A DNA stretch of 64,000 bases from Nitrospira sp. (GTDB lineage: Bacteria > Nitrospirota > Nitrospiria > Nitrospirales > Nitrospiraceae): NCBI GenBank assembly GCA_019636835.1, contig JAHBWU010000004.1, positions 1-64,000 of the forward strand, in the 5' to 3' direction. The notes under the pieces were generated by a model. That model saw only the letters and a list, made by a program, of their open reading frames with translations, did no database searches and had not been told where the DNA came from. Positions 19,492-64,000 of this stretch are shown here, piece by piece. Every line of letters begins with the position of its first letter. The first letter of the stretch is position 1. Both the position numbers and the translations under genes were made by a program.

Positions 19492-20073
19492 ATGATGATG
19501 AAAAGTCTGGTGCTGGGAATTGCATCACTATTTCTTCTTGCGTTCGTCTATTTGGGAATCTCGGCCGGCGCCAAGGATGCCGGGGGCATTCCTGCTGAGA
19601 AAGTGGCGGATATGTTGCATTCCGTCATCGAGTCAAACCGCACGTTTTATACGCAGCATGTTGTAGAGCGGATGCAAGCGAAAGGCGCTGCCGTAGCATC
19701 GGAGAATTGGCGCTCCGAAAAGACCTTACCCCTTCCAGCCCAATTCTTACAGGAAAGCGCTCGTCTATCGGTCAATTCGAAGGCGAAGGTCGGCTATAAA
19801 CTCATCAGTCTCTGGCCCATCAACAAGCAGAACGGGGCCAAATCCCAAGCTGAACAGAGGGGCCTGATGGCAACCCAACAGAACCCGGACCGTCCGTACA
19901 CGGAAGTGGTCATGAACGGAGCGGACTCCTATCTTCTGGCCATCTATGCCGATAGAGCAGTGTCTCAAGCCTGCATCGGGTGCCACAACTCTCATCAGGA
20001 CAGTCCGAGAAACGACTTCAAGCAGAATGAGGTGATGGGCGCCGTCATGATCATGATCCCGCTGAGCCTGTAG
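19492..20073 (+). CDS. Exported DUF3365 (Tll0287-like) heme-binding protein
   Basis: 193 residues with an N-terminal signal or anchor (LVLGIASLFLLAFVYLGI). The domain ends with CIGCHNSH, a CxxCH c-type heme site. Strong AAGGAGG 8 nt before ATG 19492. Its paralogue at 60499-61092 matches along the whole length (LPLPAQFLQ, NPDRP/KPDRP, IYADRAVS/IYSDRAVS). This family is known as a periplasmic heme or redox sensor domain, often attached to kinases. Here it is a free-standing protein with no kinase beside it. Confidence 0.8.
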   Translation: MMMKSLVLGIASLFLLAFVYLGISAGAKDAGGIPAEKVADMLHSVIESNRTFYTQHVVERMQAKGAAVASENWRSEKTLPLPAQFLQESARLSVNSKAKVGYKLISLWPINKQNGAKSQAEQRGLMATQQNPDRPYTEVVMNGADSYLLAIYADRAVSQACIGCHNSHQDSPRNDFKQNEVMGAVMIMIPLSL

Positions 20074-55674: not shown

Positions 55675-55998
55675 CTACTTCCCGAATGCTTTTTTCAGCA
55701 GCGGTTCGATCTCGCCCTTGGCGGCCATCGGGTCGAGGATGTCGGTATCTCCGTAGAAGGTGCCGCCGATAAACACCTTAGGAAGCGTCGGCCAATTGGT
55801 CATCTTCGTGAGCGCTTCACGCTTCGCCGGCTGCGACAGAACATCGATGAGTTCGTAGGGGTACCCATACTTGTCGAAGAACTGCATGGTTTCCCTGGTG
55901 AACCCGCACATCGGCATGGTTTTCGTTCCCTTGCCGTAAATCAAAATTTTATGGGCCTTCACTTCCTTCTGGATTTCCTCTTCGATCTGGTCGGCCAT
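55675..55998 (-). CDS. grxD: Monothiol glutaredoxin (Grx4/GrxD family)
   Basis: 107 residues, full length. Active site MPMCGFTRET where the family usually has CGFS, so Ser is replaced by Thr. Other conserved parts: KILIYGKGTKTMP, WPTLPKVFIGGTFYGDTDI. Binds and delivers 2Fe-2S clusters with glutathione or a similar thiol. GAGGAG directly before the ATG. BolA gene 9 bp upstream makes the classic Grx-BolA pair. Confidence 0.92.
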   Translation of the reverse strand: MADQIEEEIQKEVKAHKILIYGKGTKTMPMCGFTRETMQFFDKYGYPYELIDVLSQPAKREALTKMTNWPTLPKVFIGGTFYGDTDILDPMAAKGEIEPLLKKAFGK

Positions 55999-56007
55999 GG
56001 TCTCCTC

Positions 56008-56247
56008 CTATGCCTCATCTCTGGTGCGCGCAGTTAGCTCGAGCGCGTGGATACGTCCGTCCTTCATCGGCACGTCTAAGGCTTGATAGATCATTCGATG
56101 CCGGTCTAAGGGGTTTTTCCCATGAAACCCGTCTGAGACGATCACCACCTTGAGGTGGTCCATCGTTCCCGTACGGTCACTCACCGTCACGACGGCGTCC
56201 GGCAGAAGCTTGCGAATATAGTCGGTCAGTACATCGGATGTAATCAT
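56008..56247 (-). CDS. bolA: BolA family protein
   Basis: About 79 residues from ATG 56247 (GTG 56256 is less likely). Conserved BolA text: VSDRTGTMDHLKVVIVSDGF and RHRMIYQALDVPMKDGRIHA, with the His that binds the cluster. Works with the monothiol glutaredoxin in iron-sulfur cluster handling. The pair probably serves the many FeS proteins of the organism. Confidence 0.93.
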   Translation of the reverse strand: MITSDVLTDYIRKLLPDAVVTVSDRTGTMDHLKVVIVSDGFHGKNPLDRHRMIYQALDVPMKDGRIHALELTARTRDEA

Positions 56248-56490
56248 GGGCTCCACTCTCCTAGCTTTTTCAATACCCTAGCCGAAATTCGCTCTGAAAC
56301 GCAACGTGCATTCTATCGGTGGTTTTCAGCATAGTGGTGGTGCATTTGAGCCAGTACCTGCAGAAACGACCGACTCGGAGGGACCAAGCCATTGAAAATT
56401 TTCATGGTCACCTTCGTCCTGTTTCGGCATCGGCCTTGCCAATAGTAGATAGCAAAACATATCACCACCCTATTTACCAAGGAGGTCGCC

Positions 56491-56925
56491 ATGAGCGAAT
56501 TCAAGTCCGGATTTTTCGTTGGAGGTGAAAGCACCAATGGTCGAGTGCTGATCGTCGATGACGAACCCGACATTCGCAAGGTCGTCCGAATGACTTTGCA
56601 GAAAGCCGGTTACGATGTCCTTGAGGCAGAGAATGGAGAGAAAGCCATTGAAGTCATCAACTCGGGTGAAAATAGGCTGCTCCTTGACGTCATTATCTGC
56701 GACATCCGGATGCCGAAAGTGAACGGTATCGAAGCAATTGCCTACTTTCGCCAGCACTATCCGCGTGTGCCGTTGATCGTTCTGACCGGATTCCCGGACA
56801 CAGACATGGCTACATCGTTACTGAGACAGGGAGTAGTGGACTATCTCGTCAAGCCGGTCGAAGGCGAAAAACTGAAAGCCTCTGTCGCTCGTGCCATGGA
56901 ACAACGTGAATTGGCGCATCTATGA
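56491..56925 (+). CDS. Single-domain response regulator (CheY-like)
   Basis: 144 residues. Receiver with phosphoacceptor Asp71 (DVIICDIRMPKVNG), acidic pair in VLIVDDEPDIRK, Lys in DYLVKPVEG. No output domain follows; the first 17 residues are a polar lead. AAGGAGG 7 nt before the ATG. The stop overlaps the start of the next kinase gene (ATGATG). First gene of a four-gene signalling module that reads kinase, kinase, heme protein after it. Confidence 0.92.
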   Translation: MSEFKSGFFVGGESTNGRVLIVDDEPDIRKVVRMTLQKAGYDVLEAENGEKAIEVINSGENRLLLDVIICDIRMPKVNGIEAIAYFRQHYPRVPLIVLTGFPDTDMATSLLRQGVVDYLVKPVEGEKLKASVARAMEQRELAHL

Positions 56926-58058
56926 TGGACTGGATGACATCACAGGGGAAGGGCATGGCGGCCACCTCTCCTACCAACGCCCACCCAGGGATCGAAATCG
57001 AGCAGACACCCACCCCGCGTCCAATGAGAGTGGCCATTGTCGGCGCGGGCCGGGGAGGCACCGCACTGCTCGATGTGCTCCATCAGATCGGCACCATTGA
57101 GATCGTCGGCATTACCGACAAGGATCCCTTGGCACCAGGACTCCACCGGGCTCGGGAAATCAACGTGACGATCTATGACCGAGTCGCCGATCTGATCAAG
57201 AGCCCAGGGCTCAATCTTGTGATGGATGTCACCGGTGATCCTGCGATGGTGCCGGTGCTCCATGAGCTGATTTCGGCAGACGCTGACATTATCAGTGGAC
57301 AGGCTTGGCGATTTCTCTGGACACTCGTACAGCATGAATCGACATTGCAAAGCGAGTTGCTCCATGCGGAGAAACTCGCCGGAATCGGTTCGTTTGCGGC
57401 GGGTATCGCCCACGACATGAACAATCCGCTTCAGCTGATTCTCGGCTTGGCGGAAAATCTGACTGACGAAAAAGACCTCGATGCCGTACATGCTCAAGCG
57501 CGGGACATCATCGATGCCGTCAAGCGCACGTCAGCCATTTGTCGAGATCTCACCTCCTACTCACGCCGCACATCCTTACGGCAAGACTGCCTGGTCCACG
57601 TCAACGGCAAGCTGGATGAAGCCCTCAAGATCGCCCGCTACGCCGTGGCGCTTCAAGACATCGACGTTCGCAAGCTCTATCAGCCTGACGTCGCCGTGAA
57701 GGGAAACCCCGATGAACTCCTCCACGTGTTCGTCAATCTCATTACGAATGCCGTTCAGGCCATGGAGCACCACGGCACGTTGACGCTGGAAACCTCAGCT
57801 GAGGCCGGCACGACACAAGTCCGTGTTTCGGACACCGGCTGCGGCATGGCCCCGGAGGTGCAAAACCGGATTTTCGAACCCTTTTTCACCACGAAGCCCC
57901 CAGGAAAAGGAACGGGATTGGGCTTATACAACATCAAAAATGTCATCCATCGCATGAATGGCTCCATCGGGGTCGCCAGCCACATCGGTCGTGGCTCAAC
58001 CTTCACTCTCACCTTTCACGATGAGTACGTGGCCGATGAAAGAACAACTCAATCATGA
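56922..58058 (+). CDS. Soluble histidine kinase with N-terminal Rossmann (NAD(P)-binding type) domain
   Basis: 378 residues without membrane segments. Residues 36-140 form a Rossmann-type domain: MRVAIVGAGRGGTALLDVLH with the GxGxxG dinucleotide loop (41-46), acidic end of strand 2 in VGITDKDP, then LNLVMDVTGDPAMVPVLHE, like homoserine or aspartate dehydrogenases but without their catalytic half. It is followed by HisKA with His164 (GIAHDMNNPLQLILG) and HATPase (FVNLITNAVQAM, DTGCGMAPE, GTGLGLYNI). The sensor logically reads NAD(P)(H) or another nucleotide. Overlaps both neighbours by ATGA-type junctions. Confidence 0.85.
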   Translation: MMDWMTSQGKGMAATSPTNAHPGIEIEQTPTPRPMRVAIVGAGRGGTALLDVLHQIGTIEIVGITDKDPLAPGLHRAREINVTIYDRVADLIKSPGLNLVMDVTGDPAMVPVLHELISADADIISGQAWRFLWTLVQHESTLQSELLHAEKLAGIGSFAAGIAHDMNNPLQLILGLAENLTDEKDLDAVHAQARDIIDAVKRTSAICRDLTSYSRRTSLRQDCLVHVNGKLDEALKIARYAVALQDIDVRKLYQPDVAVKGNPDELLHVFVNLITNAVQAMEHHGTLTLETSAEAGTTQVRVSDTGCGMAPEVQNRIFEPFFTTKPPGKGTGLGLYNIKNVIHRMNGSIGVASHIGRGSTFTLTFHDEYVADERTTQS

Positions 58059-60550
58059 CTGAACATCCGACATCCTCTCCGCTCGACACACGATGGGGAC
58101 TCAAAACCAAAATCATCCTCTCCATGCTGCTCGTCGGTCTCATCCCGCTCGTCGTCGGCTTGGGCATGGCATTCTGGCAGGGGTCTCAAGAAATCCGTGA
58201 AGTCAGCGGCGAAAGCTTCGAAGCGCTGGCAACTGAAGCCGCCCGCAAACTCGATCTCCTGCTCGCTGAAGAAATCGCCCACACGGCACGCATCGCGAAT
58301 GATCCGATGCTCATTCGAGAACTGGAACATCGGCGTGATACACGGGGTGTTGCCAAGGGTCCCATCACAGCCCCCTCGGACTTAGAACGGCGTTGGATGA
58401 CACGAGACCGGACGGCGATCAAATCCGTCATGGAGAACCCATTCAGCGCCTTGCTCCACGAATACTTTACCGGCGTCCATAGCGCCCCGGGACAGTTGCT
58501 TCCGCACGTCGTTCGCTCTTCGACGAAGATGCTGTTCTTGACCGATGTACAGGGTACGCTGGTCGCGACCATGACCGAACATCCCGCTTTTCGCCACAAC
58601 GAGACTCGGTGGTGGCAAAGCGCCTTCAACAAAGCGGTGGGCAGACTCTACATCGAAGATATTCGTTTCGATGACCAGGTGAACGCCTATGTATTCACCA
58701 TTTCACTCCCCGTCATGGACAGCCTCCGGTATGAAGTCGTCGGGATACTTCACCGTGTGATCGACGCCAAAGAGTTCTTTTCGCCTTCGACCCACGTCAT
58801 TCGATTCGGGAAAACCGGTCATGTCATGTTGATCGATGCCAACGGCATCGTCATCAGCTGCCCGCTTCTTCCGACCGGCGTCCCGTTGTCCGATCGGAAT
58901 TTAATCCCGCTCGTTACGCCGCAGCATCCTGGGTGGGTGCAGGCATCGAGCGATGGTCATGGTGGACAGGACACCTCCGTGATCGGCTTCTCCCCTCTCC
59001 ACGAGACAAGCCGAGCGACCACCGGCTCCGACGGTACTCGGTCATGGCACACGTTCGTGTGGCAATCGTCCGATGAACTCTTCGCGCCGATTCAGCATCT
59101 GTTCACCTGGGTCACGGTGTTCGGAGCCGTCGCCTTAGTCCTGCTGGCCTCGCTGGGATATCTCGCCGCCGGCCGCATCGTGACGCCCGTACGACAACTG
59201 CAACAGGCTGCGCAGGCCATCGCACGTGGTGAACTGCGGACACCGATTCAGATCAACACCGGTGACGAATTAGAAGACTTGGCGGAAGAGTTTAATCGGA
59301 TGAACAGTCAACTGAAAGCTGCATTCGCCGGACTGACCGACCAAGTCAAGTTGAAGACCCAAGAGGTCCAGGTCCTCCAGCAGTCCACGGATCAGATCTT
59401 GGACGCCGTTCCCACCCCCATTCTCCTGATCGATGCTCATGAAGTCGTACGCTACATCAATCAGGCGGCCCGTGAATCCTTCAAGGTCCAGGAGCCGATG
59501 GCGGGAGCGTCGCTGTTCACGATTCTTCCTCTCGACCCAGCCGTTCAGAAACAGCTTCAATCAGAGTTCCGAACGAACGGCGATACGCCGTTCGCCGCAA
59601 CCGATATCGAGCGTGAGACGGTACCGAGGGACCCCCTTATGCCTAGTGTAGATAAAGAATCGGCCGGTCATCGTGCCGAACTTCACATCGGATCCCGTAT
59701 CTATCGGTACCAATGGTTCCGATTACCCGTGAGACCAGGGGAAGAAGACAGTATCGGACTGGTGCTTCGAGACTCTACTGACGAGAGCCGGCTGCAAGAC
59801 CAACTGGTTCAAGCGGAGAAAACGGGCAGCCTCGGCGTGCTAACCGCCGGAATCGGCCACGAACTCAACAATCCCCTGTTCGGGATCATCGGACTGGGAG
59901 AAATGATTCAGGATGAACAGGACTTGGAGCATATCAAGAGCTGCGCCCGAGACATTGTGACTCATGGTCGTCGCATGGCGACCATCATTCGAGATTTTAC
60001 CGGTGTGACCAACCGCGAGGCCTCCGACAAGCCGATGCCGGTGTATCTAGAGCAGGAACTGGATCAGGCGTTGGCCTCGGCACAAACCACCGTGGAGATG
60101 AAGAATATCGTGATCCACAAGACCTATGCGGGCAATACGCCCGTGTTGGCATTCCCGGATCAACTCCGGCAAGCGTTGGTGAATCTTGTGACCAATGCAG
60201 CCCAAGCCATGCAAGGTACCGGCACACTCACGCTGACGACGCTCGTGTCGGACCATACCGTGACCGCGACGATCGCTGATACCGGTCCCGGCATATCAAA
60301 ACAATACTTAAGCAAGATATTTGACCCGTTTTTTACGACGAAGGGACAGGGGGAAGGTTCCGGTCTTGGACTCACGGTCGCGAGGCGGATTCTCCGAAAG
60401 TTCGGGGGCGATCTTCGGATCGAGAGCGTCGAGGGCCGCGGTACAGCTTGCATCGTCACTCTCCCGACCAATTCCCCCATGTCTTCTGAAGGAGGCCCAT
60501 GGACAGCCGCCGCTGCGCATTCCGAGCCGCAACCATCGCATTCTTCTTAG
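58055..60550 (+). CDS. Transmembrane sensor histidine kinase, dCache-HAMP-PAS-HisKA-HATPase
   Basis: 831 residues. First membrane helix about 19-42 (KIILSMLLVGLIPLVVGLGM), large periplasmic region of some 300 residues with double-Cache character (FVVRSSTKMLFLTDVQG-like text and GKTGHVMLIDANGIVISCP), second helix (VFGAVALVLLASLGYLAAG), HAMP (IVTPVRQLQQAAQAIARGE), PAS near 460-560, HisKA with His602 (GIGHELNNPLFGIIG), HATPase (VNLVTNAAQAMQGT, GSGLGLTVAR). Its last 52 bp overlap the heme protein gene. Class of kinase resembles the preceding one (NNPL motif). Confidence 0.88.
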   Translation: MTEHPTSSPLDTRWGLKTKIILSMLLVGLIPLVVGLGMAFWQGSQEIREVSGESFEALATEAARKLDLLLAEEIAHTARIANDPMLIRELEHRRDTRGVAKGPITAPSDLERRWMTRDRTAIKSVMENPFSALLHEYFTGVHSAPGQLLPHVVRSSTKMLFLTDVQGTLVATMTEHPAFRHNETRWWQSAFNKAVGRLYIEDIRFDDQVNAYVFTISLPVMDSLRYEVVGILHRVIDAKEFFSPSTHVIRFGKTGHVMLIDANGIVISCPLLPTGVPLSDRNLIPLVTPQHPGWVQASSDGHGGQDTSVIGFSPLHETSRATTGSDGTRSWHTFVWQSSDELFAPIQHLFTWVTVFGAVALVLLASLGYLAAGRIVTPVRQLQQAAQAIARGELRTPIQINTGDELEDLAEEFNRMNSQLKAAFAGLTDQVKLKTQEVQVLQQSTDQILDAVPTPILLIDAHEVVRYINQAARESFKVQEPMAGASLFTILPLDPAVQKQLQSEFRTNGDTPFAATDIERETVPRDPLMPSVDKESAGHRAELHIGSRIYRYQWFRLPVRPGEEDSIGLVLRDSTDESRLQDQLVQAEKTGSLGVLTAGIGHELNNPLFGIIGLGEMIQDEQDLEHIKSCARDIVTHGRRMATIIRDFTGVTNREASDKPMPVYLEQELDQALASAQTTVEMKNIVIHKTYAGNTPVLAFPDQLRQALVNLVTNAAQAMQGTGTLTLTTLVSDHTVTATIADTGPGISKQYLSKIFDPFFTTKGQGEGSGLGLTVARRILRKFGGDLRIESVEGRGTACIVTLPTNSPMSSEGGPWTAAAAHSEPQPSHSS

Positions 60551-61092
60551 GCGGACTCTGGATCGGGATTCCGTTTCCATCCGCCAAGGAAAGCCCAGGT
60601 CTTGTCGGCATTGCTCCGGAGAGAGTTGCCGACTATGTCCATGCCGTCCTTGAGGCCGATCGATCGATTTACACAACGCAGGTGGTCAATCGCATGCAGG
60701 AGAAAGGCATTGTCGCGGCGGCGGAACATTGGGAGCAGGATAACGCTCTCCCCCTTCCTGCCCAATTTCTTCAGCATTCCGGACGGTTGGTAGCCGAGAG
60801 TGGACGAGGCATCCGGTACAGATTGATCGGACTTTCCCCGATTTATCAACGCAACGCTCCCGCCACCGAATTCGAACGAAAGGCCCTGACCGAGCTACAA
60901 CGGAAGCCGGATCGGCCGGTCACCGGAATTGTGTCGAGCGGCAAGAAGCAGTACTTCCAAGCCATCTATTCAGACCGGGCTGTCTCTTCAGCCTGCGTCG
61001 CCTGTCACAACAGTCATCCGTTGAGCCCGAAGCAGGATTTCAAGTTGAACGATGTGATGGGTGGGATCGCGATTACGATTCCTCTGGAGTAG
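60499..61092 (+). CDS. Exported DUF3365 (Tll0287-like) heme-binding protein, kinase-linked
   Basis: 197 residues. Strong AAGGAGGCCC before ATG 60499, which lies inside the end of the kinase gene (52-bp overlap), so the two are translationally linked. Signal-like segment (FRAATIAFFLGGLWIGI). Heme site CVACHNSH near the C terminus. Paralogue of 19492-20073. By location a periplasmic redox or ligand sensor that could feed the adjacent kinase; this is inference. Confidence 0.85.
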   Translation: MDSRRCAFRAATIAFFLGGLWIGIPFPSAKESPGLVGIAPERVADYVHAVLEADRSIYTTQVVNRMQEKGIVAAAEHWEQDNALPLPAQFLQHSGRLVAESGRGIRYRLIGLSPIYQRNAPATEFERKALTELQRKPDRPVTGIVSSGKKQYFQAIYSDRAVSSACVACHNSHPLSPKQDFKLNDVMGGIAITIPLE

Positions 61093-61508
61093 CAGGACGC
61101 AATGCGTCACTGGACGTCTTGGATATCGAGACTGGCATGGAGGCAGACCATCAGCGATAAAGATATAGGTGAAATCTTGAAAGGACTGATTCATCCTTGT
61201 CTGGGTCTTGAGCGTACAGAGTTCGAAGCTATTGGCCGGGATACCACTCGGATGGGCGGGATCGGCATAGGTGCTGGAGGTCACCACGCCATTGCAATAG
61301 GTGAGGAGCGATCTACCATGTGACATCCCGATCAACGCCGGGGAAGATATGGTCGATGACGATGGGAATCGTCAAACCTTCTTAAAGTGCCTGGGAAAGG
61401 TCGTTCACCGTACAGCTAGAAAGAAGTTGCAGATATGCTGAGGGCTGCACGACGGCGACCGTCGTCAGCCGAGGAGTAAACAAGCCCTGATACAAGACCT
61501 GTCCCTGC
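61093..61508. other. Intergenic stretch between the signalling module and RHS remnants
   Basis: 416 bp. Frames 61102-61323 (+) and 60988-61335 (-) show no protein character. The minus-strand sequence near 61382-61508 follows the displaced RHS end and probably is non-coding remnant. Confidence 0.4.
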
Positions 61509-61811
61509 TCACTCAATAATACGGGATTCATAGCAGTAGAAATCGGTGCTGTAGTCGAACTCCTTACCAGTGTACTTGTAGGGCACATCAACCGCCGGGG
61601 TCGTGAAACTCTGATTCGTGCGGGGACCGCCAAAGGGAGAATAGGTGAGCGCCTGGGCCTTGGCCCCCGTGCTGGTCGTGATCACACTGGCATTGCCCAG
61701 ATGGGCCCCATGCCAGTAGTGCGTGGCGCCGTTACTGGCGACCGTGGCGACTCGAGTGTTGTCTCTCCAGATGAACCGGCTGCAACGAGTCGTGGATTCA
61801 GTTGAACTCAA
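61509..61811 (-). pseudogene. Displaced duplicate of an RHS core end (orphan tip remnant)
   Basis: About 100 codons that repeat the RHS core end at 63272-63560 nearly word for word: CSRFIWRDNTRVATVA, HYWHGAHL, then TTSTGAKAQALTYSPFGGP, SFTTPAVDVPYKYTGKEF. After DYSTDFYCYESR it changes to a short unrelated end (IIE, stop). The start is an arbitrary TTG with no ribosome binding site. Such partial core copies downstream of toxin/immunity genes are typical of RHS loci that swap toxin tips by recombination. Confidence 0.8.
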
Positions 61812-61934
61812 AAAAGACTCCCGGTACGTTTTCCTATCGTAGTGCGGGATGATAGTGGCGGGCTAAGAATCAGACAGTTTGACGAATAGAGCCCACTCGC
61901 CATTCAGAACTGTCACATTAGCGGTCTGGCTCCT

Positions 61935-62299
61935 TCAGCACATTGCGTTCCTGGCCTTTCGCCAGTGCTCGATCCCTTCTGTCGTGCTGACAAACCAAAC
62001 CACATCGCCAATGGTGGGTTCTTGCCCTAACTCGTTCCAGTCATGCTCAATTTCTTGACGATCTGGTCGGTGAGCAGATCCCAGGAGCCAAATCCCGAAC
62101 CACCTCGTCTCGGGAATCCCGCCTGAATTAAGTTGTTTTCGAGCACAGCTTTTATTGTCTCTAGAGCAATATGCTGAACCTCCTTGGGAGAAGCATGCGC
62201 GTTCAAGTCTTCAACATCCCGAATCACCTCCCAAAGTCCTGTATAGTCGTCATTACAACTAAGCAGAATACTTCTCTCAAGATTTGTCAGGATTGACAA
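61935..62299 (-). pseudogene. Putative RHS-linked immunity-type gene, frameshifted
   Basis: The frame 62027-62299 gives 90 residues (LLSCNDDYTGLWEVIRDVED, AGFPRRGGSGFGSWDLL) and stops early in KKLSMTGTS. Shifting one base at the AAA run near 62053 restores a continuous reading: KKIEHDWNELGQEPTIGDVV then WFVSTTEGIEHWRKARNAMC and a stop at 61935. The restored second half looks like genuine protein, so the gene was about 120 residues and now carries a one-base deletion, or the sequence has an error there. Function unknown; by position a second immunity or associated protein. Confidence 0.6.
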
Positions 62300-62324
62300 T
62301 CCTTACCTGTGAATTACCTAAGTA

Positions 62325-62546
62325 TCACGGCTTCCTAATTGCGGCAAGGATTCGACCATCGCTTGTGTCAATCATTTCACAGACAACATCATCGCCAGGT
62401 TCAAATTGCCAAGAATCGATTTCCCGATCATATGGCTGGCTAATGATATGGTAGACATTTGTATGCAAGTGTTGAGCGAGCACAGGACGCCAGACTTGGA
62501 CTGCTTCATTGAGTAAGCCAACGTAGATCTGAATAGTTTGGCTCAT
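62325..62546 (-). CDS. Putative immunity protein to the RHS toxin tip
   Basis: 73 residues. ATG 62546 overlaps the toxin stop (ATGA), the usual layout of toxin and immunity gene. Sequence: IYVGLLNEAVQVWRPVLAQH, then a beta-rich rest (WQFEPGDDVVCEMIDTSDG) ending AAIRKP. No family named from memory. Moderately acidic, as expected for a protein that covers a basic nuclease. Confidence 0.6.
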   Translation of the reverse strand: MSQTIQIYVGLLNEAVQVWRPVLAQHLHTNVYHIISQPYDREIDSWQFEPGDDVVCEMIDTSDGRILAAIRKP

Positions 62547-63019
62547 GGCAGATCTCCACTACCCGGACCATACTTAAATCCCGGACCACCCACGTGGATC
62601 ACTTCACGTGTTACGTTATCAATAACAACTGACTGACCAGTTGTTGGATTAACATACCGCGTGGCTGGATTACCAGTTGCCTTGTTTATAGCCGGAACTT
62701 GTCTGCCTGATTTTACTGCTTCTTTGATTGCCTTAGGAGTCCAACCACGAGGGCCCATTTGCTTGGCAATTTTGGGACTGATTTTTAATGATTTGTCCAG
62801 TTCCTTGATAGCCTCAAGGCTGACCTTTCCAGTCGGCCCAGCACCGAGTCCCCCCACGGGGTTGATGCCGAGCGAAAGCAGTAATGCTGGAAGAATCTCG
62901 CCTCGATAGAGCATGTTCGCCAGTTGTTGCTGAAACGCCAGATTCCTCGATCCGAACGGTCCAGGCACATATAATTCCGGGCCGAACGGTCCAATCGGAT
63001 ATCCTGGGGGTGGCGTCAC
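62543..63019 (-). CDS. RHS C-terminal toxin tip, possible colicin E5-like ribonuclease
   Basis: 158 codons from a GTG at 63019, but probably the 3' end of a longer rhs gene rather than a free gene: upstream in the same frame, DNA reads proline-rich linker text before a TAG at 63035. It starts TPPPGYPIGPFGPELY, then a helical part and the tip GPRGWTPKAIKEAVKSGRQ, ATRYVNPTTGQSVVIDNVTR, EVIHVGGPGFKYG. The tip resembles proteins annotated as colicin E5-related ribonucleases, which cut tRNA anticodons; recalled, not searched. Immunity gene overlaps its stop. Confidence 0.55.
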   Translation of the reverse strand: MTPPPGYPIGPFGPELYVPGPFGSRNLAFQQQLANMLYRGEILPALLLSLGINPVGGLGAGPTGKVSLEAIKELDKSLKISPKIAKQMGPRGWTPKAIKEAVKSGRQVPAINKATGNPATRYVNPTTGQSVVIDNVTREVIHVGGPGFKYGPGSGDLP

Positions 63020-63271
63020 GATAATAGGAGGCAGCTACACGTCAACGTCTGGCCCAGGCCAGGGGGGGGGAGGAGGCAGGGCGGCGGACAGCCATAAGTG
63101 CTCTTTCTCCTTCCAGGCATACCTGGGCGCGATCCGAAACCGGTCGGGTCGGTGTAGTTCGGCGGACTGTTCCGGACATAACTGCTTAGCGGTTGAGATC
63201 TTGTGGATTCGGCGGATCGGGCACGAGCGTATCCGTTGAAGCCGGCCGAACCACGGATCATAGTACGCGAT
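63020..63271 (-). pseudogene. Frameshifted RHS segment between core and toxin tip
   Basis: The normal text of an RHS repeat end appears here in pieces in three different frames: YYYESR and YYDPWFGR near 63260-63285, then TLVPDPPNPQDLNR, then SYVRNSPPNYTDPTGFGS, then WPGPDVDV before a TAG at 63035. At least three indels plus one stop separate the core from the tip. A run of nine G at 63062-63070 lies among them. Either the rhs gene is decayed or this stretch has sequence errors. Confidence 0.7.
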
Positions 63272-64000
63272 TCATAGTAGTAGGAAGTCGGTGCTGTAGT
63301 CGAACTCCTTACCAGTGTACTTGTAGGGCACATCAACCGCCGGGGTCGTGAAACTCTGATTCGTGCGGGGACCGCCAAAGGGAGAATAGGTGAGCGCCTG
63401 GGCCTTGGCCCCCGTGCTGGTCGTGATCACACTGGAGCTGTCGAGATGATCCCCGTGCCAATAGTGCGTGGTCCCGTTTGTGGCGACCGTGGCAACTCGA
63501 GTGTTGTCTCCCCAGATGAACCGGCTGCAACTCGTCGTGGATCCGGTTGTATCACATTCATAGAACTTGTTGATGTAACGCGTCGTCGTGGTCCCCACGA
63601 TCTTCTTCACGCGGCTGCCCTCGCCGTCATAGACGAAGGTGGAGTTGATGGTTGTACTGCCAAACGTGGTCACGGCGCTCGTCAAGCGATTGTCGACGTT
63701 AAACGTCGTACTGGAGCTGTAATCGCCGAGCGTACTCGTGATGCCGGTCTGATTGCCATTGTTGTCGTAGCTGTACTGATAGGGGCCGGCGACCTGAACG
63801 GCATGAGGCCGCACGACGCCTGCGCCGCTGGAGGGATAGGTAAAGGTGCCTCCCGTGAGTTGACTGTTCGCCAGGATATTGCCGATCTGGTTATAGCCAT
63901 AGGTAATCGTGTCTGTCGCGCCTCCCGTCCCATAGGGACCCGTGGCCGTGGTCAAGCGATCCAGCGCATCGTAGCCGAAGTCTTGATTCCCGTTAATCGG
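63272..64000 (-). CDS. RHS/YD-repeat protein, C-terminal part of core (runs off the window)
   Basis: Open on the minus strand from the window edge to 63272 (about 242 codons). YD-repeat text is clear: FGYDALDRLTTATGPYGTGG, ITYGYNQIGNILANSQL, YQYSYDNNGNQTGITS, FNVDNRLTSAVTTFG, then FVYDGEGSRVKKIVGTTTTR, and the conserved core end FGGPRTNQSF...YKYTGKEFDYSTDF. The frame then shifts and stops (FLLL) where YYYESRYYDP is expected. RHS proteins form a shell around a C-terminal toxin used against competitors. Upstream part is outside the window. Confidence 0.85.
   Translation of the reverse strand, partial: PINGNQDFGYDALDRLTTATGPYGTGGATDTITYGYNQIGNILANSQLTGGTFTYPSSGAGVVRPHAVQVAGPYQYSYDNNGNQTGITSTLGDYSSSTTFNVDNRLTSAVTTFGSTTINSTFVYDGEGSRVKKIVGTTTTRYINKFYECDTTGSTTSCSRFIWGDNTRVATVATNGTTHYWHGDHLDSSSVITTSTGAKAQALTYSPFGGPRTNQSFTTPAVDVPYKYTGKEFDYSTDFLLL

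Follow-up and report, generated by a model that had tools for sequence, protein, structure and literature searches.

The window analysed here is a stretch of 64,000 nucleotides from a Nitrospira sp. assembly (contig JAHBWU010000004.1, positions 1 to 64,000 of the forward strand). The open reading frames confirm the four-gene series that an earlier note had described at 56491-61092 on the plus strand, with overlaps of 4, 4 and 52 bp, encoding a receiver, two histidine kinases and a heme protein. Together with two upstream elements, the features of the locus are as follows.

56335-56353, plus strand: conserved block TGGTGGTGCATTTGAGCCA, ~90 bp upstream of the promoter, which from its position may be an enhancer (UAS)
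56425-56440, plus strand: candidate sigma-54-type -24/-12 promoter CGGCATCGGCCTTGCC, from footprinting; the window copy matches 8/12 of the consensus
56491-56925, plus strand: RR, single-domain response regulator, 144 aa (Pfam Response_reg, 1.2e-29)
56922-58058, plus strand: RosHK, soluble HisKA histidine kinase with an N-terminal Rossmann domain, 378 aa (Pfam HisKA and HATPase_c)
57003-57395, plus strand: Rossmann input domain of RosHK, predicted to be of the NAD(H) type (AF2 pLDDT 93; Foldseek and VIA matches)
58055-60550, plus strand: CacheHK, membrane histidine kinase with the order dCache-HAMP-PAS-HisKA-HATPase, 831 aa (Pfam; two hydrophobic segments)
60499-61092, plus strand: Tll0287-like (DUF3365, sCache_heme) secreted CxxCH protein, 197 aa (PF11845, 6.7e-19)

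Good Shine-Dalgarno sequences precede RR (AAGGAGG) and the heme protein (GAAGGAGG); none was seen at the starts of RosHK and CacheHK, both of which overlap the upstream stop, and translation of the two kinases is therefore likely to be coupled to that of the upstream gene. No terminator-like site was found on the plus strand inside the operon. Genes for BolA and a monothiol-type glutaredoxin (55675-56256, minus strand) lie divergently upstream, an arrangement seen throughout the family, and close to the start of BolA a TACCCTAGCC-like stretch is invariant. On the other side, a Rhs/YD-repeat-like coding sequence with repeated segments (61300-64000, minus strand) separates the module from a permease/bactofilin/PBP1 block, which is ~7.7 kb away here and directly adjoins the module in relatives.

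The receiver consists of a single Response_reg domain spanning residues 19-132, and Pfam thus bears out the earlier claim that it has no output domain. Its acidic pair, phospho-Asp, Thr and Lys are present in all members of the family that are not fused to another domain. Mean amino-acid identity of RR within the genus is 94%, compared with 45% at fourfold sites (by a simple method), and lies above that of the kinases (70-75%) and of the heme protein (78%). A constraint so much stronger than that on either kinase fits a hub that has to match several partners, as far as sequence conservation can indicate.

Both kinases match HisKA and HATPase_c above the Pfam cut-offs (3e-10 and 7e-26 for RosHK, 4.7e-9 and 3.9e-25 for CacheHK) and pass the HisKA two-component kinase test, with the His in HisKA and the N, G1, F and G2 boxes in HATPase_c. 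H164, the N-box, DTG, FFTTK and GTGLGL are invariant among 24 RosHKs, and the same kinase motifs can be read directly in CacheHK. The latter also contains a HAMP domain (1.8e-14), a dCache_1 match below cut-off (1.4e-9), in which the amino-acid-binding motif looks incomplete when read by eye, and a weak PAS match. Judged by hydrophobicity, RosHK is soluble, while CacheHK, with hydrophobic segments at about residues 15-43 and 345-379, is a membrane protein with a large periplasmic part, in agreement with the earlier suggestion that one kinase is cytoplasmic and the other faces outside.

The N-terminal domain of RosHK, modelled alone on 40 relatives with AF2 (hence the pLDDT listed above), matches NAD-dependent dehydrogenases in Foldseek and VIA (1nvm, GenD2-NAD, inositol dehydrogenases; Z 10-12) as well as Rex (3wg9; Z 9.9, rmsd 2.1 over 91 residues in VIA). 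Within RosHK, GxGxGG and D66 are invariant, and in the model the conserved residues cluster at the strand ends facing the cofactor. Together with GxGxGG, the acidic residue retained where beta2 ends speaks for NAD(H) rather than NADP(H). By structure and motif, RosHK is thus predicted to sense nucleotides through an NAD(H)-type Rossmann fold. A single long helix (residues 126-182) runs in the AF2 model from this domain into the phospho-accepting (DHp) helix.

The assignment does not make RosHK a member of either of the families that it resembles. Like the Rex NADH/NAD+ repressors, it would use a Rossmann NAD-binding fold for sensing, with no catalytic domain attached; unlike them, it has no winged-helix DNA-binding domain (none in Pfam, and the model shows no structure for residues 1-30), and its Rossmann domain is coupled to a histidine kinase, or in homologues to a receiver or a sigma-54 activator, so that it works like Rex at most. 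Gfo/Idh/MocA proteins and acylating aldehyde dehydrogenases provide the closest structural and weak sequence matches, but the substrate domain is absent: ~105 residues of Rossmann fold are followed by the signalling helix, and HisKA takes the place of the C-terminal substrate domain of Gfo/Idh/MocA proteins. In the window protein, the GFO_IDH_MocA match (0.0013) is below the curated cut-off, as is every other Pfam NAD family. Apparently, this is an undescribed, Rex-like input domain.

The earlier note had recognised the Rossmann domain in the kinase, and missed both its mobility and its fusion to the receiver. The domain was found in 184 of 296 Nitrospirota genomes and also outside the phylum. 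Its partners include HisKA kinases, HisKA_3 kinases followed by a LuxR-type regulator, and a GAF hybrid kinase with GGDEF in Mariprofundaceae (L153). One such HisKA_3 kinase is a second Rossmann kinase of the source genome (L082:4756-5859, own contig C100), which overlaps its LuxR-type response regulator gene and has homologues in nearly all Nitrospirales genomes searched. The domain is also seen at the N-terminus of sigma-54 activators from Alkalihalobacterium (Bacillota; L166:5956-8055) and a Rokubacterium (L154:3489-4196).

In eight genomes from at least three groups, the Rossmann domain is inserted in alpha4 of the orthologous receiver itself (L071:8239-9030; L317-L321; L149:1705-2631; L296:3100-3882, where a run of N follows the Rossmann part and the receiver C-terminus lies outside what was seen). 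The shared insertion point makes a single ancestral fusion event likely, and its location within the orthologous receiver provides a direct link between RR and the Rossmann parts. Fused receivers always lack two residues just after the phospho-Asp. Tentatively, and at odds that we would put a little short of even, we propose that the Rossmann domain represents a new family of input domains that read NAD(H), used by HisKA, HisKA_3 and hybrid kinases and by sigma-54 activators, and that it can also act on a receiver directly: in three genera it sits in alpha4 of the same receiver that it would otherwise control by way of a kinase, and there control by ligand would replace phosphotransfer.

A rather doubtful but serious alternative is that NAD(H) is not what the domain senses: its ligand could be some other nucleotide or a metabolite such as a CoA ester, or the domain could now serve for dimerisation. 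A common fold is in itself no proof of a ligand, the Pfam matches are weak and mixed (including DapB_N and CoA_binding in relatives), and acylating aldehyde dehydrogenases, which use both NAD and CoA, are among the best structural matches. However, across several phyla, the kinases, the receivers and the sigma-54 activators retain the glycine motif, an acidic residue (D/E) where beta2 ends and a DVTG segment, and a mere dimerisation domain would have no need of them.

The last gene of the operon matches the Tll0287-like family above the Pfam cut-off and passes the combined test of PF11845 and CxxCH, the latter motif being present in all 17 module heme proteins. With its one hydrophobic segment at the N-terminus, the protein is predicted to lie outside the cytoplasm, where it had been placed before. 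A search of PDB sequences with it gave no match. Five further Tll0287-type CxxCH proteins are encoded in the genome (window 19492-20073; contigs C107, C34, C38 and C81), also devoid of the axial Cys. Indeed, an alignment of the 17 module members with these five paralogues contains no third Cys after the signal region, which rules out the Tll0287 redox subtype with Cys/His heme for the module protein; as the paralogues share it, the absence is not special to the module.

The sCache_heme family has been described in a 2026 preprint (PMC12889525), in which NO binding is stable in members that are fused to signalling domains, a stable ferrous NO complex with slow release being shown there for a member other than the module protein, and in which stand-alone members look like redox proteins with an axial Cys and are assigned redox rather than sensor roles. 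The module protein fits neither of these classes cleanly, because it stands alone and yet lacks the axial Cys. It resembles Tll0287 and other sCache_heme proteins (PMC12889525) in its PF11845 match, CxxCH, secretion and stand-alone form, and differs from Tll0287 in the missing axial Cys and in being the last gene of a two-kinase operon. An open distal site, and hence sensing of NO or of redox state, is plausible from these sequence features.

The module protein could instead be an ordinary periplasmic electron carrier that is merely co-transcribed and makes no contact with CacheHK, a reading that we regard as somewhat improbable, though a real contender. The genome has six Tll0287 paralogues, redox roles have been assigned to stand-alone members (PMC12889525), and RR and kinases occur without the heme protein in three loci (L298, L282, L284), the first of which has RR, RosHK and CacheHK with no heme protein nearby. 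Against this, the heme gene directly follows CacheHK, and overlaps it, in almost every complete module of the two families, and the heme protein is more conserved than either kinase.

Periplasmic proteins that work with a membrane kinase are familiar from TorT-TorS, LuxP-LuxQ and ChvE-VirA. As in those systems, the gene for a secreted protein here accompanies that for a membrane kinase with a domain in the periplasm; unlike them, the partner is a c-type heme protein, and from the genes alone it is a candidate partner.

Three independent lines of comparison point alike to one receiver for both kinases: the relationship of the two cores within the genome, their relationship across families, and the neighbours of the receiver clade. 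Among the 30 HisKA kinases of the genome, the cores of RosHK and CacheHK are sisters (support 100/99), and when other families are added, RosHKs and CacheHKs still fall into a joint clade (100/99), with the CacheHKs in one subclade and the RosHKs in several; by these trees, the two kinases derive from one ancestor. At the DHp specificity positions, which we presume can be transferred from work on EnvZ, RosHK and CacheHK are identical in 4/6, compared with at most 3 for any other kinase, by a simple method. The RR clade is monophyletic (99/96) against 29 other receivers of the same genome, the best-scoring ones among the 109 receiver matches. Members of this clade stand beside RosHK alone in four loci (L072, L074-L076), beside CacheHK alone in three (L282, L283, L284) and beside both kinases in other lineages; on this comparison, the receiver stayed while the neighbouring sensor kinases changed between lineages.

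Because the kinase cores are sisters, the specificity positions agree and the same RR clade occurs beside either kinase, the two very probably share RR as their single receiver. The earlier note had named a preference of each kinase for unrelated receivers as speaking against its reading; in the neighbourhoods compared, neither adjoins an unrelated receiver. Its proposal that both kinases feed one receiver is supported by these comparisons; the word shuttle is not, as a phosphorelay of that kind requires an HPt and the module has none. Seven HPt matches lie elsewhere in the genome, so a phosphorelay through one of them is possible.

Several kinases acting on one single-domain receiver are known from DivJ/PleC-DivK in Caulobacter and KinA-E/Spo0F in Bacillus. 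The module is like these systems in pairing a single-domain receiver with more than one HisKA kinase, here by comparative evidence, and in an output that would proceed by contact or relay. It is unlike them in that the kinases are sister genes in the receiver's own operon, that no DivL/CckA- or Spo0B/Spo0A-like partner belongs to the module, and that the sensor domains differ.

An unlikely alternative is that CacheHK mainly serves an NtrC-type activator, with RR as a phosphate sink or specificity brake, or that the kinases divide kinase and phosphatase roles as DivJ and PleC do on DivK. The order in L282 and L283, where RR and CacheHK are followed by an NtrC-type activator (a sigma-54 enhancer-binding protein) with an intact receiver, would suit the first version, and the H-[DE]xxN motif of both kinases is compatible with phosphatase activity. 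But in L284 no receiver other than RR is seen next to CacheHK, the Nitrospira operon contains no activator, and the Nitrospira orthologue of the activator (58%; contig C69:39181-40500 of the source genome) has a degenerate receiver that has lost the normal phospho-Asp motif.

A search of gene neighbourhoods for the four families together showed their order to be conserved in Nitrospira, in other genera and in a second family, as the earlier note's view of the genes as one module had supposed. The order RR-RosHK-CacheHK-Tll on a single strand was found at 31 loci in 30 same-genus genomes, many of the compared genomes being metagenome assemblies; relatives of the source genome include N. moscoviensis and N. 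defluvii. Among same-genus loci, the Tll gene is missing only in L048, at a contig end, and one Nitrospira genome (L077) has lost RosHK, CacheHK and Tll for the most part and retains the receiver. The overlaps of 4 bp between RR, RosHK and CacheHK are kept across Nitrospira loci, and the last overlap of 52 bp, which is 49 or 55 bp in some loci and 34 bp in one, persists at 60-90% protein identity. The same order recurs in other genera of the family (L286-L291), and the four genes are together in ten loci of the second family (L069, L070, L073, L140, L141, L143, L145, L146, L150, L151) and in four further ones (L292-L295).

Within Nitrospira, the flanks are conserved as well, with BolA and glutaredoxin upstream and permease-like, bactofilin-like and PBP1-like genes downstream, as they would be if unrelated regulators had met in an operon by chance and were kept by general genus-level synteny, but that account is scarcely credible, since the second family keeps the module intact without any of these flanks and RosHK and CacheHK are sisters; chance grouping or genus-level synteny alone was rejected on this ground. 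The module was also rejected as a marker of nitrite oxidation, as it does not track the NXR-like enzyme (proxy TIGR03479, below cut-off in all genomes): the genomes with a fused receiver keep this enzyme, and the orthologous CacheHK is absent from those searched.

The operon is predicted to have a conserved sigma-54-type promoter, which the earlier note had missed. A core GGCAY-N5-TTGC lies 55-120 bp before RR in 41/43 Nitrospiraceae-type loci, compared with 0.1 expected from background, and agreement with the consensus rises from 8/12 in the window copy to 11/12 in N. defluvii and 12/12 in L291 (TGGCACGCCCATTGCT). The site is visible by phylogenetic footprinting only: a search of the whole window for the sigma-54 consensus with one mismatch failed to find it, and a sigma-70 promoter scan of the region gave nothing. 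No sigma-54 site was found upstream of RR in the second family. The block at 56335-56353 recurs in most same-genus loci, 156-188 bp before the RR start, a typical enhancer distance that makes it a possible UAS; a regulon search found no exact second site for it in the genome.

The C69 orthologue of the NtrC-type activator is the best lead to an output and points to nitrite or NO; from its gene context it is a lead, nothing more. It follows NirK-like, truncated globin and cytochrome genes (L314:4729-8507), the NirK-like gene matching TIGR02376 at 4e-61, below cut-off. This NirK/globin cluster is common to a close relative (L315) and not shared with another Nitrospira (L316).

On the evidence of sequence and predicted structure, the most likely reading is that two kinases control RR, RosHK on behalf of NAD(H) and CacheHK on behalf of the periplasm together with the heme protein. 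As a whole, we explain the operon as a Nitrospirales signalling hub with two inputs and one receiver, and assign this a probability of roughly 60%. RosHK would read the cytoplasm by binding NAD(H) in its Rossmann domain, and ligand-dependent movement of that domain would reach the phospho-accepting His directly along one helix, with neither a HAMP nor a PAS domain intervening. CacheHK would be the reader of the periplasm: either a small ligand would bind to its dCache domain, or that domain would be modulated by the heme protein translated along with it, which in turn may sense redox state or NO. Both kinases would phosphorylate the same RR and, given the H-[DE]xxN motif in each, may also remove the phosphate again, such that RR~P would integrate the two inputs and act by protein contact.

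The module is apparently a variant of multi-kinase two-component systems with a Rex-like input domain. Among open papers, where absence is weak evidence, we found none on the module or on a Rossmann domain, a histidine kinase and NADH sensing in combination; if the prediction is true, NADH sensing by histidine kinases via a Rex-like domain would apparently be new. Similarly, the receiver that carries a Rossmann domain within it would be an example from nature of a receiver gated by ligand, of use for understanding and engineering two-component switches, and the loci at which partners were swapped amount to a clean experiment of nature on the way in which two kinases came to share RR. Nitrospira are the main nitrite oxidisers of freshwater, soil and water treatment, and their adjustment to redox state, nitrite or NO has been little described. 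With a conserved operon in which RR apparently unites a sensor of the NAD(H) type in the cytoplasm and a heme-linked one in the periplasm, they offer a defined, testable regulator.
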